DNA of 64,000 bases, taken from Methanoculleus caldifontis. Its GTDB lineage: Archaea > Halobacteriota > Methanomicrobia > Methanomicrobiales > Methanoculleaceae. A program made the position numbers and the translations under genes. Within the stretch, counting starts at the first letter, position 1; every line of letters begins with the position of its first letter. The notes beneath the pieces were generated by a model. That model searched no databases and was not told the origin of the DNA. It saw only the letters and a list, made by a program, of their open reading frames with translations. The DNA is taken from assembly GCF_032842345.1 (NCBI RefSeq), contig NZ_WBKO01000001.1, forward strand, positions 62,001 to 126,000, given 5' to 3'. Positions 46,180-51,693 of the stretch are shown in pieces.

Positions 46180-46998
46180 ATGAAACAGATCGCCCTCTAC
46201 GGGAAGGGTGGAATCGGGAAATCCACTACGTCAGCAAACCTCTCGGCGGCACTCGCAGGGGAAGGGCTCGATATCCTGCAGATCGGCTGCGACCCCAAGC
46301 ACGACAGCACCCGCATGCTGGTGCACGGGACCTGGATCCCGACGGTGCTCGACCTCATCAGGGAGCGCGGCGACGCGAAGATCACCGTCGACGACGTCGT
46401 CCACACCGGTTTCAGGGGAGTGCGCTGCGTGGAGGCCGGCGGACCGGAGCCGGGGATCGGGTGCGCCGGGAGAGGGATCATCGCGACCTTCCAGCTCCTG
46501 GAGCGCCTGGAGGCGCTCACGGGCGACGTGATCGTATACGACGTCCTCGGCGACGTCGTCTGCGGCGGGTTCGCGATGCCGATGCGGGAGGGGTACGCGC
46601 AGGAGGTCTATCTCGTCACCTCCGGCGAACTGATGTCGATCTACGCGGCAAACAACATCGCGAAGGCCATCACCCGCCTCTCCCGCCGGGTCCGGAGCAG
46701 GTGCACGCTCGGCGGCGTCATCTGCAACGCAAAGAACATCGAGGGCGAGCGGGACCTGGTGGAGGAGTTCGCCCGCCGGATCAACTCCCGAATGATCGCC
46801 TACGTCCCCCGCGACCGCGTGGTCCAGATCGCGGAACTCCAGAAGCAGACGGTCGTGGAGTACGCCCCCGACTCGGCCCAGGCGGCGGTCTACCAGGACC
46901 TCGCCCGGACGATCTACGCGAACGAGACGACGAGCACCCCGACCCCCCTCGAGATGGATGAACTCGAATCCTTCGCCCTCGAATTCGTCCAGGTTTGA
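46180..46998 (+). CDS. NifH-like ATP-dependent reductase, uncharacterised nitrogenase-like group
   Basis: A dimeric Fe-protein homologue of 272 residues that should pass low-potential electrons to a NifD/K-like partner at the cost of ATP. P-loop GKGGIGKST (8-16), switch I-type GCDPKHDST (36-44), the bridging-cluster cysteines C95 (PGIGCAGRG) and C128 ([10 protein letters not shown]). The KHD in GCDPKHDST differs from nitrogenase NifH (KAD) and, as I recall, from CfbC of F430 synthesis (KSD). The two ATGs at 46177/46180 are equivalent; an in-frame GTG at 46096 would overlap the promoter. The 3' end overlaps the NifD-like gene by 41 bases. Confidence 0.9.
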
Positions 46999-48031
46999 GG
47001 GGTGCACCCTGACCGGGGCGCTCTCGGTCCTGACGCAGGTACGGGACGCGGTCTGCATCGTCCACGGCCCGTCGGGATGCACCCACCACAACTTCTCCCT
47101 CCTCCACGCCACCATCCTCGCGAACGACTGCGTGGAGGTTCCCCGCCTCCTCTCCACCCGGCTCACCGAGAACGATATCATCTTCGGCGGCGAGGAGGCT
47201 CTCGAGAAGACGATAGCCCGGGCGCTCGTCTCCTCGCCGCCGCCCGCCTCGATCTTCGTCCTCTCGACCTGCATCGTCGAGACGATCGGGGACGACACGG
47301 CGGCGGTCTGCGCAAGGCCCTGGGGCGTCCCGGTGATCGCGGTCCCGACGGCGGGGTTCCTCGGCGGGGTCTTCGAGACCGGGATCAGGAACGCCCTCTC
47401 CTCGGTCGCCTCGCTCGCGAGCCCTGCGGCGGAGGTGACACTCGCGGCAAACCTCGTCGGCGAGAAGAACCTGGAGTACGGGGTCGACGAGAACGCGGCG
47501 GAGATCGCCCGCCTCCTCTCGCGGCTCGGGATCGGGATCAACCTCCGGTTCGTGCGGGGGATCGCGACGGAGGACGCCGGCCGGCTCGGCGCCGCCGCGG
47601 TGAACATCCTCCGCGAGCCCTCGCTCCGGCCGGTCGGCGAGGACCTCCTCCGGAGGTTCAAGACGCCCTACGTGGACTCGTTCCCGGCCGGCCTCACGGG
47701 GACGTGCCGGTTTCTCGAGGAGGTCGGCCGGATCTGCGGCGTCGACGCCTCGGAAGCGGTCGAGGAGGAGCGGGCTTATCAGGCGGAGATGCTCTCGCGG
47801 TTCTCCGACCTTTCGGGGAGCCGGGTCTGCTTCCGCTCCCCCCACCCGATGCTCGATCCGGACCCGGCGGCGGAGGGGATCTCGACCGAGTGCGCCGAAG
47901 CCCTCGGTCTTACCGTCGACCCGGAGGGAACGGCCATTCCCCTGCCGTATCCTGCGCCCGTGGGGACCGCCGGGCTGCGGCGGATGCTGAACCGGTGGCG
48001 GGTGCTGGTGAGGGGGAAGGGGCGGGGGTGA
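46958..48031 (+). CDS. NifD/K-like catalytic component, first subunit
   Basis: A nitrogenase component 1-type protein of 357 residues, shorter than true NifD (~480). Cysteines at the three expected cluster-ligand positions are C16 (FEGCTLTGA), C41 (HGPSGCTHH) and C105 ([13 protein letters not shown]). Family members place a cluster like the P-cluster there. The cofactor-binding Cys and His of NifD are not evident, so dinitrogen reduction is unlikely; small-molecule or tetrapyrrole reduction is more typical of such groups. It is coupled by overlap to the NifH-like gene. A probable partner subunit is encoded 2.5 kb to the right on the other strand. Confidence 0.85.
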
Positions 48032-48114
48032 GGGGGCGGCTCCCCCGCCCGACTCCGCACAGTGCCATTTAAATACCCGGTGCGAGAGAGAGACCCCCGG
48101 AGAGAGTGTCATCG

Positions 48115-48588
48115 ATGTTCAAACGCATCCTGTTCCCAACGGACTTTTCCGAACCCTCCATGAAGGTGCTCGACTACATCCCCGTGTTGCGGGAGGCGGG
48201 AGCCCGGGAGGTGGTCCTCGTCCACGTCATCGACGAGAAGGACGTCACCATGATCGCCTCCGGCGGGCAGGGGTTCCTCGGAACCATACCGGACCGCGAG
48301 ACCGAGGCCCAGCGCGAGCTCCGTGAGGAGATCCAGCACAGGGTCATCGACACCCGCCGGGCGCTCGAGAAGCAGGGCATGGCAGTGACCGTCAGAACGC
48401 CCGTGGGGAGCCCCGGAAAAGAGGTCGTCGCTGCCGCGGACGAGGAGGGGGCCTCGCTCGTCGTCCTCGGCTCCCACGGCCGGTCCAACCTCCGCGACCG
48501 GTTGCTCGGGACGGTCTCGGAGTACGTGATCAAGAACGCCCGCCAGCCGGTCCTGGTCATCAAGCGGGACATGATTCGGGGGCAGTAG
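48115..48588 (+). CDS. Universal stress protein (UspA family)
   Basis: A 157-residue alpha/beta protein with the UspA pattern: FKRILFPTDFSEPS at the start and the ATP-binding type ending VVLGSHGRSNLRDRLLGTVSEYVI (G-2x-G-9x-G(S/T)). Usp proteins bind ATP and modulate stress responses. ATG 48115 gives a standard N-terminus; GTG 48106 would add three residues. A TATA-like TTTAAATA lies at about 48068-48075. There is no functional tie to the flanking nitrogenase-like genes other than position. Confidence 0.92.
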   Translation: MFKRILFPTDFSEPSMKVLDYIPVLREAGAREVVLVHVIDEKDVTMIASGGQGFLGTIPDRETEAQRELREEIQHRVIDTRRALEKQGMAVTVRTPVGSPGKEVVAAADEEGASLVVLGSHGRSNLRDRLLGTVSEYVIKNARQPVLVIKRDMIRGQ

Positions 48589-48589
48589 T

Positions 48590-48612
48590 CCTCCCCCCTT
48601 TTTCCCAAAAAA
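48590..48612. terminator. Bidirectional terminator between UspA and PH-domain genes
   Basis: A T5 run (48599-48603) followed by an A6 run (48607-48612) lies between two convergent genes. The arrangement can serve as a U-tract terminator in both directions. Confidence 0.55.
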
Positions 48613-48615
48613 GTG

Positions 48616-49209
48616 TTATCTCTCCTGCCTGCTCTCCAGCAACTGCCGGATCGCCCGGAGCTCCTCCACGATCTCGCCGGCGGCAGGGAGTGCCGGCGGC
48701 TGCTCCGCCCCGCCGTCGACCGCGACCGGGCCGACCGTCCGGACGAAGTTCATGATCTTCTCCTGAACGTCTTTTGGGTCCTCGATCCCGGTGAGGACGA
48801 TCTCCGCCTGTGCCTGGGCCGAGTAGCCCGCGGTCTGCACTTTGACCGCCGAGAAGGCGAAGTAGCGCATCAGGGGCCCCTGGCTGATATCGACGTTCGT
48901 GATCCGGTTGTAGGGGACGATCCCCGTCTGCCGGAACCAGACCCCCCGCTGCCAGGTGATCTCGGTGACGGTCAGCCGGTAGACGATGCTCTCGTAGTAG
49001 AGCGGGATCCAGTAGACGACGAAGACGAAGGCGCCGACGACCGGCAGCGTGACGGCGAGAGCGATGGGTGCCGGGCTCAGGGCGACGAGCGGGACGAACC
49101 ACGGCAGGACGAAGACGGCGATGGCAAGGCCCAGGGAGGCGTAGAGGTAGGACCGGAACTGCGGCGCCGGTTTGAACGCCTCTCCGATATGGAGCGGGGT
49201 GAGGGGCAT
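48616..49209 (-). CDS. Membrane protein with bacterial-type PH domain (YdbS-like)
   Basis: A 197-residue protein with two hydrophobic helices (residues ~20-70) followed by a bPH2 domain: YRLTVTEITWQRGVWFRQTGIVPYNRITNVDISQGPLMR. The C-terminal ~45 residues form a charged helix (EIVEELRAIRQLLESR). Such proteins occur widely and their function is not settled. It precedes the acetyltransferase gene in the direction opposite to the NifH/D pair. Confidence 0.87.
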   Translation of the reverse strand: MPLTPLHIGEAFKPAPQFRSYLYASLGLAIAVFVLPWFVPLVALSPAPIALAVTLPVVGAFVFVVYWIPLYYESIVYRLTVTEITWQRGVWFRQTGIVPYNRITNVDISQGPLMRYFAFSAVKVQTAGYSAQAQAEIVLTGIEDPKDVQEKIMNFVRTVGPVAVDGGAEQPPALPAAGEIVEELRAIRQLLESRQER

Positions 49210-49227
49210 GATATCAGACCACTTATC

Positions 49228-49707
49228 TCAACCCTTGCTGATTAAGCCTTCCCCGCCGGCGAGGTCTCTCCGGAGGATATGGCGGTCGCCCCCCTCGCCG
49301 AAGTAGTCCGGAGAGAACTCCGCCCCCTCAAAGCCGTGCTTCTCGTAGAGCGCCCGGGCGCCCCGGTTCGACGGTGCGACCGAGAGATAGACCTCCCTCG
49401 CCCCCACCTCCCGGAGACTGTCGACGACGGCGGAAACCAGGCTCTCCCCGATTCCCCGGCGCCGGTGCTCCCCTGCGACCACCAGCCGGATGATCCACCC
49501 GGTCGCCGGCCGGTGCTGCACGAGCGCCCCGATGGTGTAGCCGACGACCCTCCCGGCGCACTCCGCGATGAAGAAGGTCCCGGCGAAGAGGATGCCCGCC
49601 TGCCGGACGAAGACCTCGGGCTTGCACCCCTGCGGGCTGTTCTCCCGCTCGAGGGCAGAAACAGACGGGAAGTCCTCCTCGCGGTATTTCCTGACGATCA
49701 CGTCCAT
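49228..49707 (-). CDS. GNAT-family N-acetyltransferase
   Basis: A 159-residue acetyl-CoA-dependent transferase. Motif A is visible as IIRLVVAGEHRRRGIGESLVSAVVD, with the acetyl-CoA loop R-R-R-G-I-G, followed by VYLSVAPSNRGARALYEKHGF (motif B). The arrangement is close to RimI-type protein acetyltransferases. ATG 49707 is selected because the recognisable sequence begins MDVIVRKYREEDF. The substrate is unknown. Confidence 0.88.
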   Translation of the reverse strand: MDVIVRKYREEDFPSVSALERENSPQGCKPEVFVRQAGILFAGTFFIAECAGRVVGYTIGALVQHRPATGWIIRLVVAGEHRRRGIGESLVSAVVDSLREVGAREVYLSVAPSNRGARALYEKHGFEGAEFSPDYFGEGGDRHILRRDLAGGEGLISKG

Positions 49708-49786
49708 ACGGATGTATTCGCCGTGAGGAGTAAAAAGAGAAGAGCCCCGGTCCCTCGCGCACCAGGGCATGCGAGGCCGCGCAGGC

Positions 49787-49993
49787 TCACTTCTTCATGC
49801 CCTTCTGGAGCATGTCGCGTGCCATCTGGTAGGTCTCGATCTTGTGCTGCATCAGTTCCATGTGCTGCTGCTTCATCTTGATGCGGGACTCGATCATCCG
49901 GACCATCAGTTGCCGCATCTGGTCCTCGTCTAAAAGATCGTACATCTTCGTCAGAAGCATATCGTGGGCGCCGTAACCGCCGTGGTGTGTCAT
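49787..49993 (-). CDS. Small Met/Gln-rich helical protein
   Basis: A 68-residue protein with no family recognised. After a Gly/His-rich start (MTHHGGYGAHDM) it is one long amphipathic helix rich in Met, Gln and Lys (MRQLMVRMIESRIKMKQQHM, continuing LMQHKIETYQMARDMLQKG). It probably forms coiled coils or binds metal through Met/His. ATG 49993 is preferred; an upstream ATG at 50038 would add 15 residues. It lies in the same orientation as the tautomerase and the second NifD/K-like gene. Confidence 0.65.
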   Translation of the reverse strand: MTHHGGYGAHDMLLTKMYDLLDEDQMRQLMVRMIESRIKMKQQHMELMQHKIETYQMARDMLQKGMKK

Positions 49994-50083
49994 GCCATAA
50001 CCCCCTGTAACGACCTGCCCATACAGGCAGGTCGGCACCCCGATATCCGCCGGGTCTTAAAAACCTTATGACACCCCGCAGGC

Positions 50084-50452
50084 CTACCGCGAGGGCCCGA
50101 ACGCTTCGCCGTGTTCGGCCCAGTTCTCGACGGGCGGCTCGTAGAGGACGATGCAGACGTCTTCGGGGCGGACGCCCGCATCGTGGTCGAGGTACCCCAC
50201 GATCGCCCGATAGAGCGCCTGCTTCGTCTCGGCGCTCCGCCCCGGCATGAGCGAGGCCTCGATCAGGACCGCGTCGGCCGACCGGCCGGGGGGCATCGGG
50301 AAGTTCTCGGGTTTGCGCTCGCAGAGCCGGAGCCAGAGGGCGGCCTCCGGGGTCCCTAAAGCGTCCACGAAAGCCTTGCGAAGGCTCTCGATGAGTAATT
50401 GCCGGTACTCGACCGGCTTTCCCGTGCGGATCTCGATCTTCACAAGCGGCAT
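50084..50452 (-). CDS. Tautomerase-superfamily protein
   Basis: A 122-residue protein with the tautomerase hallmark, Pro directly after the start Met (MPLVKIEIRTGKPVEYRQLL), where processed Pro1 is the catalytic base. The rest fits a two-repeat beta-alpha-beta fold of the MIF/4-OT type. The substrate is unknown. It is downstream of the second NifD/K-like gene (90 bases) in the same direction, so the two may be co-transcribed. A tautomerase could act on the product of that enzyme, but this is speculation. Confidence 0.82.
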   Translation of the reverse strand: MPLVKIEIRTGKPVEYRQLLIESLRKAFVDALGTPEAALWLRLCERKPENFPMPPGRSADAVLIEASLMPGRSAETKQALYRAIVGYLDHDAGVRPEDVCIVLYEPPVENWAEHGEAFGPSR

Positions 50453-50544
50453 GCGGACCTACTCCGGCGGCAGGGCGGGGATCCACCGGGATCCCTGCTC
50501 TCCGTTATGATTGCTGTGCGGCACCGGGCCTATTAACGCTTTCC

Positions 50545-51693
50545 TCAGGAGAGGCCCGCCGCTCCGGTCTCCGGGCCCCGGGAGCGGTTGATGCAGGCGT
50601 TGAGCACCTCCTCCATCAGGAGGAGCGCCCCCTCGATCCCGGCAATCGTGCGGGAGGAGAGGAGGACCCTGCCCCGGAGCGGCGGGGTCAGCCCGACGAA
50701 CGCGGCGCCGGGGGCGATGGACCGCTCGTAGGAGGAGCCGAGGACGAGGTCCGGCTCAGCGTCCAGGATCATCTTCCGGACCGCCGCGAAATCGGTCGTG
50801 GAGGTCCCGGGACCGTTCCGGGCCGCGACATGGGCGATCTCGGCGCCCAGGTAGCGGTCGAGGAGGTCCGCGGCGAATGAGGCATACGCGCTCTGGGCAG
50901 TGATCGCCACCCGGGGCGGGTCGAACCGGCGGAGGTACTTGTCGCAGGCCTTCCGGATCCGGGCGTCGGCCCAGGCGATTTCCTCACTGACGGGGCGGGC
51001 ATCGACCCCGTCGACTGCGGCCGCGAGCCGCTCGAACGTCCCGGCAACGGCCTCTAGGCCGAGGAGCGAGCCGCACGAGGTCCCGACACCGCTCGATAGG
51101 TCCGGGTTCGTCTCGACGGTGAACGGGGCAGCACGGTGGGCCGCCTCGTAGCGGTCGAGGCAGAATGTCGTCCCGACCGTGGCGCCGGCGAGGTTGAGGA
51201 GCCGCCGGGCCTCGATGGCGTTCCCCCGGCAGAAGGGGTCGGTCCGGCAGATCCCGTCGATGTTGACGCCGGGGGCGTCAGGGTCCACCTCCGGCGCGAC
51301 GCAGTCGAGCGCCCGGCGGTAGCCGGCCTCGAGGTCGCCGAGGAACCCGGGGCTGTCGACGACGAGGATACGCCCGTCGGAGGCGAGGTCGCCGATCTCC
51401 TCGCCCATGATCGCGGGGACGCAGGTGTTGACGACGGCTATTTTGGAGTAGCGGCCCTCGAGGTCGCCGATCACCTCCGCGAGGCGCGACTCCGTCCCGA
51501 AGATGATCTCGCTCTCGACGAGGAACGTCCCGTGGATGGGGACCCCGACGAGGGATGAGGGGTAGAAGTAGCAGCCGCTCGACCCGTGGACGACGACGGC
51601 GAGGTCCTCGAACCCCGAAAGGCATGCGACCGCCCCGGTCATCGCACAGGGCCAGAGCGGGTTCTCGCACGGCGTATGCTGGTCCTCTGGCAT
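50545..51693 (-). CDS. NifD/K-like catalytic component, second subunit
   Basis: A second nitrogenase component 1-type protein, 382 residues. The three cluster-ligand cysteines are again present at nearly the same positions as in the other subunit: C16 (NPLWPCAMTGA), C41 (HGSSGCYFYP) and C101 (VVNTCVPAIMGEEIGD). The segment FLVESEIIFGTESRLAEVI is like the NDIIFGGEE block of the first subunit. The two are paralogues and probably pair like NifD with NifK (or NifE with NifN). It is the first gene of a leftward run; TATA-like ATATAAAAG lies at about 51719-51728 (minus-strand complement). It is separated from its putative partners by five unrelated genes. Confidence 0.85.
   Translation of the reverse strand: MPEDQHTPCENPLWPCAMTGAVACLSGFEDLAVVVHGSSGCYFYPSSLVGVPIHGTFLVESEIIFGTESRLAEVIGDLEGRYSKIAVVNTCVPAIMGEEIGDLASDGRILVVDSPGFLGDLEAGYRRALDCVAPEVDPDAPGVNIDGICRTDPFCRGNAIEARRLLNLAGATVGTTFCLDRYEAAHRAAPFTVETNPDLSSGVGTSCGSLLGLEAVAGTFERLAAAVDGVDARPVSEEIAWADARIRKACDKYLRRFDPPRVAITAQSAYASFAADLLDRYLGAEIAHVAARNGPGTSTTDFAAVRKMILDAEPDLVLGSSYERSIAPGAAFVGLTPPLRGRVLLSSRTIAGIEGALLLMEEVLNACINRSRGPETGAAGLS

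Follow-up and report, generated by a model that had tools for sequence, protein, structure and literature searches.

A Methanomicrobiales-specific nitrogenase-like two-component reductase, possibly acting on a tetrapyrrole, whose Fe protein probably also serves CfbD

Three genes in the genome of Methanoculleus caldifontis, here called H, D and K, encode the components of a nitrogenase-like enzyme, which we read as an ATP-dependent two-component DK reductase specific to the Methanomicrobiales that would act on a tetrapyrrole of the corrinoid or F430 type and share its Fe protein with the F430 pathway. We give this reading, which comes from sequence comparison, a probability of about one half. 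The genes lie in a stretch of 64,000 nucleotides (the window; contig NZ_WBKO01000001.1, positions 62,001 to 126,000). Their architecture is well supported, the sharing of H we infer from the gene content of the order, and the substrate class is put forward with moderate confidence. In window coordinates, the features are as follows.

46180-46998, + strand: H, NifH-type Fe protein, the reductase component (272 amino acids; PF00142, Fer4_NifH, 358 bits)
46958-48031, + strand: D, alpha-type (NifD/E-like) subunit (357 amino acids; PF00148, Oxidored_nitro, 177 bits)
50545-51693, - strand: K, beta-type subunit (382 amino acids; PF00148, Oxidored_nitro, 121 bits)
46958-46998, + strand: overlap of the H and D genes (41 bp), the commonest H/D overlap across Methanomicrobiales, indicative of translational coupling

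One NifH-like and two NifD/K-like reading frames, the first overlapping one of the others, had been recognized in a preliminary description of the window; all three are open as described, the profile matches agree and the 41-bp overlap recurs in most of the sampled genera of the order. We aligned 38 orthologues each of D and K, from ~28 genera. Cysteines C16, C41 and C105 of D and C16, C41 and C91 of K are invariant in 38/38 sequences and C9 of K is near-invariant; the third cysteine of K had earlier been placed at C101. The P-loop and C95/C128 of H are likewise invariant among its orthologues. Purifying selection acts on D and K, with ratios of nonsynonymous to synonymous substitution (dN/dS) of 0.18-0.29, and the ratio for H is 0.09-0.12. 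Both D and K possess the three P-cluster cysteines per subunit that serve as a criterion for nitrogenases, and together they have six cysteines at P-cluster positions and no cofactor ligands. Where the iron-molybdenum cofactor (FeMo-co) ligand Cys275 would lie, the alignment of D shows an invariant Arg beside a gap, and the C-terminal domain is shortened and lacks the segment bearing His442. In lacking both FeMo-co ligands, D departs from the NifD of a nitrogenase.

Profile searches against the PDB retrieved NifE and NifD alpha chains as the best matches of D, NifE being the nearest, and placed the N-terminal half of K mainly closest to NifK-type beta chains. AlphaFold single-chain models (predicted local distance difference test scores of 90 for D and 91 for K) match the folds of dark-operative protochlorophyllide oxidoreductase (DPOR), methylthio-alkane reductase (MAR), NifEN and NifDK; DPOR is the top structural match of the D model, and the template modelling score of K to NifK/NifN is about 0.8. 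The nearness of D to NifE by sequence profile would suit a NifEN-like scaffold or maturase handling the L-cluster for the methyl-coenzyme M reductase (MCR) activation complex or another protein, and MCR activation does use [8Fe-9S-C] clusters (PMC12176620). We regard such a role as highly improbable, as D lacks the Cys that ligates the L/M-cluster and DK is found in one order only, whereas L-cluster use is methanogen-wide. CfbD, too, was rejected as the identity of D or K: on the CfbD model TIGR03282 (cut-off 268 bits) D scores ~48 bits and K ~40-41 bits, and a true CfbD is encoded elsewhere in the same genome (contig 3, C3:155218-156264, 514 bits). The proposal of a two-component, two-subunit nitrogenase-like enzyme distinct from CfbD is therefore upheld.

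D and K are characteristic of a whole order. Among 150 Methanomicrobiales genomes, 138 had a strong match to D and 141 to K; the co-occurrence anticipated for the two subunits is borne out, with 137 genomes carrying both genes, 8 lacking the two and 5 having a single one of them (Fisher p = 8e-10), these 5 all being fragmented assemblies. In a phylum-wide sample the best score outside Methanomicrobiales drops to 119 bits, and a scan of GTDB with one genome per species retrieved ~50 loci, all labelled as Methanomicrobiales genera, 'Methanomicrobiales' or 'Euryarchaeota', beyond which scores fall to ordinary NifE-level matches. In both surveys DK is restricted to Methanomicrobiales. CfbD exceeds its cut-off in 136 of the 150 genomes, always as a single copy. 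In G039, G051, G057 and G062 it lies in open frames of 541-746 amino acids, perhaps fusions or merely long frames in GC-rich DNA.

Two genera have dispensed with DK, represented by G047 (99% complete) and G149, a Methanospirillum stamsii genome with a contig identical to strain Pt1 across 4167 bp. Both retain CfbD, and H in its usual position. On the H tree the two H proteins are sisters (support 97/88), so a single loss of DK is likely, and the persistence of H without DK implies that H has a role besides DK.

That role is most probably the reduction of CfbD. The source assembly (2.6 Mb in 4 contigs, 99.9% complete) contains only one further NifH-type gene, the true nifH of a full nifHDKEN set on contig 3 (C3:97.8-105.2 kb), leaving H as the sole non-Nif NifH homologue. 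The earlier remark that nifB, nifE and nifN do not lie nearby is accurate in that no complete nifHDKEN set adjoins the window genes; the set is, however, present on another contig. No NifH-type gene adjoins the cfbD of this genome, and H is on a different contig; the cfbD neighbours are a CfbB-like amidase and a Mur-ligase-like gene, the latter probably CfbE. The suggested search for cfbCD elsewhere in the genome thus returned a separate CfbD with no NifH-type gene beside it. With a Methanosarcinaceae CfbC as query, no CfbC of the cfbD-linked type was found in the order, the matches listed comprising only operon H and NifH-type proteins at no more than 57% identity. In complete genomes devoid of nif (for example, G004, G034 and G040), our screens retain a single NifH-family gene, operon H, which leaves H as the one evident reductase for CfbD. 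Such a reductase is required for F430 synthesis (PMC7242693), and as several complete genomes yield no second NifH-family gene in the screens, it is most likely that H supplies both CfbD and DK. The initial view of the enzyme as separate from F430 biosynthesis is not supported, given the position of H as sole non-Nif homologue and the lack of a cfbD-linked-type CfbC among the matches from the order.

The sequence of H is consistent with CfbC by one measure and closer to NifH by another. It passes the NCBI CfbC model NF033200 (420 bits vs a cut-off of 402) and scores 392.7 bits on the nifH model TIGR01287, just under the 394 cut-off, on which the cfbD-linked CfbC proteins reach 316-338 bits. 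NF033200 takes in proteins of two groups that the H tree keeps apart, and true NifH falls only ~15 bits under its cut-off. The cfbD-linked CfbC of Methanosarcinaceae and other families carries the motif GCDPKSDSS and is 44-50% identical to H, which carries GCDPK[HR]DSTR and is 52-57% identical to NifH; the impression that GCDPKHDST is unlike CfbC was correct. In a tree with ChlL as outgroup, the cfbD-linked CfbC clade (99/99) and the Methanomicrobiales H clade (96/96) are separate. This greater nearness to NifH, together with the position of H in the DK operon and away from cfbD, could mean that H is dedicated to DK and that CfbD is served by another reductase, either true NifH or one that is not of the NifH family. 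We judge that arrangement unlikely: many complete genomes with CfbD have this NifH-family gene alone, the two DK-less genera keep H at the locus and the NCBI CfbC model accepts H.

Evidence on the substrate comes from relatives of the system. In Pelotomaculum, the HDK genes are flanked on one side by a gene for a btuR-type adenosyltransferase and on the other by btuFCD-type genes; a cobalamin riboswitch follows K closely, in the interval between K and the btuF-type genes. Fused genes in G338, G293, G348 and M. stamsii adjoin BtuFCD-, CbiZ-, CbiK- or CobN-type genes, and a riboswitch precedes a NifH-like gene in Acetobacterium wieringae, where the latter is followed by a NifK-like protein of 528 amino acids and two BtuC/BtuD-like pairs. 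The loci concerned are listed here.

L298:7585-11186, L346:6503-9801, L347:6236-9708, L352:7354-10831 and L353:15164-18456: genes for a fused NifH-NifE-like protein and a NifN-like protein in Methanosarcinaceae and Methanospirillum stamsii; at several of the loci they adjoin genes for corrinoid uptake/salvage or for chelatases
L363:8488-9616: Acetobacterium wieringae locus, with a cobalamin riboswitch (61.7 bits) that ends ~90 bp upstream of the NifH-like gene

The BtuFCD-type names derive from wide Pfam families (periplasmic binding protein, FecCD and ABC), and the substrate of the transporters is for that reason itself inferred; stronger signs of a corrinoid link come from the riboswitch and from the BtuR, CbiZ, CbiK and CobN families. 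The corrinoid context of the relatives and the F430 link of H together make a tetrapyrrole the best-supported class of substrate, probably either a corrinoid or an F430-type molecule, with no firm choice between them.

Phylogenetic analysis grouped D with the NifE part of the Methanosarcinaceae/Methanospirillum NifH-NifE fusions and with Pelotomaculum D (98/94, a tree in which the long-branched ChlN falls there as well; 98 by approximate likelihood ratio test, SH-aLRT, in a larger set). By the approximately unbiased (AU) test, an origin of D as an offshoot of NifD/E was rejected (p 0.0007) and a recent D/K duplication inside the order disfavoured (p 0.043). The fusion systems are nearest to D on the tree and conserve R197 of D; they differ in the fusion of H with D and in an N-like subunit that carries Asp/Pro in place of two of the three Cys. 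Pelotomaculum resembles the window system more fully, having separate H, D and K in order and Cys at all three positions of both D and K, but it is bacterial, its locus is corrinoid-linked and its branches are long. A further nitrogenase-like (Nfl) lineage (L300, L301, L355) occurs in f7, f14 and Methanoregulaceae-like genomes, with three Cys in D, three to four in K and, in L300/L301, an H of the GCDPKRDSTR type. Several Methanomicrobiales also encode lone NifE-like proteins of 392-407 amino acids with no H or K recognised alongside (L356:8202-9380, L357:8483-9670, L360:7084-8307).

We propose that H, as an Fe protein dimer with one [4Fe-4S] cluster, would hydrolyse ATP and send single electrons to a D2K2 heterotetramer, entering through a cluster at the D/K interface held by up to six cysteines, either a P-cluster or a [4Fe-4S] cluster (both the heterotetramer and the cluster type are predictions). 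Because the FeMo-co/L-cluster ligands are missing, electrons would pass straight to a substrate in the cavity of D, as in DPOR, chlorophyllide oxidoreductase (COR) and CfbD. The same H would also supply the separate CfbD homodimer in F430 synthesis, one Fe protein thereby feeding two catalytic components. The likeliest substrate would be a metallated tetrapyrrole, either a corrinoid (for example, reduced from Co(II) to Co(I), or in the ring) or an F430-type macrocycle.

Several observations weigh against this proposal. The AU test does not reject a single clade uniting H with cfbD-linked CfbC (p 0.18), and H could accordingly be a strongly diverged CfbC and not its substitute; in the tree called for earlier, H lies outside the cfbD-linked clade, with sisterhood to CfbC still permitted. 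Across 40 Methanomicrobiales H-D-K loci there are no B12 genes, unlike in the loci of the relatives, and the conserved neighbours are FprA, phosphoribulokinase and TrkH genes upstream and leuCDB-like genes downstream. No riboswitch or other RNA element was found near the window genes, and five Methanosarcina-type relatives (L298, L348-L351) have no recognised corrinoid neighbourhood. The riboswitch-linked system of Acetobacterium is distant (end branch of 2.2 for its H; component 1 only 24% identical to Pelotomaculum K), and K joins the matching second subunits weakly (87/88), a grouping unresolved in the larger set. As the joint clade is not rejected, we do not claim the displacement of CfbC as shown. 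It is only tentatively that we suggest a stronger form, in which the Fe protein of an HDK enzyme that reduces a corrinoid or F430 has taken the place of the usual CfbC in Methanomicrobiales, so that one Fe protein powers both the homodimer CfbD and a heterotetrameric DK with a P-cluster and no cofactor. DK would then be a reductase that modifies B12 or F430 at a point other than the known F430 step.

Two other substrates deserve weighing beside that of the proposed corrinoid/F430-type reductase. DK might belong to F430 metabolism itself, where it would, for example, reduce a form of F430 particular to Methanomicrobiales or restore F430 that has been oxidised (didehydro-F430), H being CfbC and the common donor. 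An H shared with CfbD, near-universal presence in one methanogen order and the lack of cofactor ligands, as in tetrapyrrole reductases, all fit; yet Methanospirillum, a methanogen with CfbD, lives without DK, the relatives adjoin corrinoid-type rather than F430 genes and no order-specific F430 is reported in the literature we found, which leaves this a rather doubtful option. That DK reduces a small non-tetrapyrrole substrate, in the manner of methylthio-alkane or sulfonate reductases, is chemistry of which Group IV is capable, as MarHDK and IsrHDK demonstrate (PMC12552129, PMC11423573). It seems to us improbable here, in view of the missing cofactor ligands and the corrinoid context of the relatives; no radical-SAM partner was identified in the conserved neighbourhood either, though no search was aimed at radical-SAM proteins.

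In Group IV, functions are known for Cfb, Mar and Isr (PMC11423573, PMC12552129). The proposed reductase resembles the Cfb system in that H is accepted by the CfbC model, in being an Fe-S reductase without FeMo-co and in its occurrence in the same organisms, where CfbD is probably the second partner of H; it departs from it in having distinct D and K subunits in place of a CfbD homodimer, and an H outside the cfbD-linked CfbC clade. DPOR and COR (BchLNB/ChlLNB, BchXYZ) also have a two-subunit catalytic component without FeMo-co, and theirs reduces a tetrapyrrole, but the DPOR ligands are three Cys and one Asp and Methanoculleus has no chlorophyll pathway. NifDK and MarDK share the six cysteines at P-cluster positions; their FeMo-co/[8Fe-9S-C] ligands are absent here, and D falls short of a typical NifD by ~120 residues. 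Dos Santos et al. (2012; PMC3464626) had already reported archaeal and bacterial NifDK-like pairs, unassigned, that keep the P-cluster cysteines and lack the FeMo-co ligands, together with H-E fusions and ABC transporters in the vicinity. A literature search without subscription papers found no study of the Methanomicrobiales DK operon, of an H shared with CfbD or of a link between nitrogenase-like proteins and corrinoids. The kind of enzyme is already known; what appears to be new is this variant, its conservation across the order and the reliance on a single Fe protein. Almost all of an order that ranks among the major methane producers has kept the enzyme. Should H be shared, these archaea would make F430 with a reductase other than the one studied, and one Fe protein would have two catalytic partners. 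The corrinoid link provides a specific starting hypothesis for a branch of the nitrogenase superfamily that has lacked an explanation, and Methanospirillum, having lost DK naturally, serves as a ready-made comparison.

Among neighbouring genes, the tautomerase earlier suggested to act in the same pathway is confined to the window's genus, and both it and a GNAT gene were set aside as partners on grounds of restriction to genus or family. The leuCDB-like genes were also rejected; they are conserved neighbours, but lie on the opposite strand to H-D-K and are generic by family models. In the two DK-less genera (L159, L160) these genes, usually just downstream, are also missing at the locus. The 'split subunit genes' by which the enzyme was first characterized are peculiar to the window's family, in which D and K are separated by a universal stress protein (USP) gene and others; K is inverted in most members of the window's genus. 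H-D-K is one operon in every other family, its overlaps conserved across the majority of 28 genera, so the split is a derived, local rearrangement. Outside the window's family the operon is translationally coupled, with H/D overlaps of 41 bp in most genera and mostly 20-38 bp in the others, and a D/K overlap of usually 8 bp.

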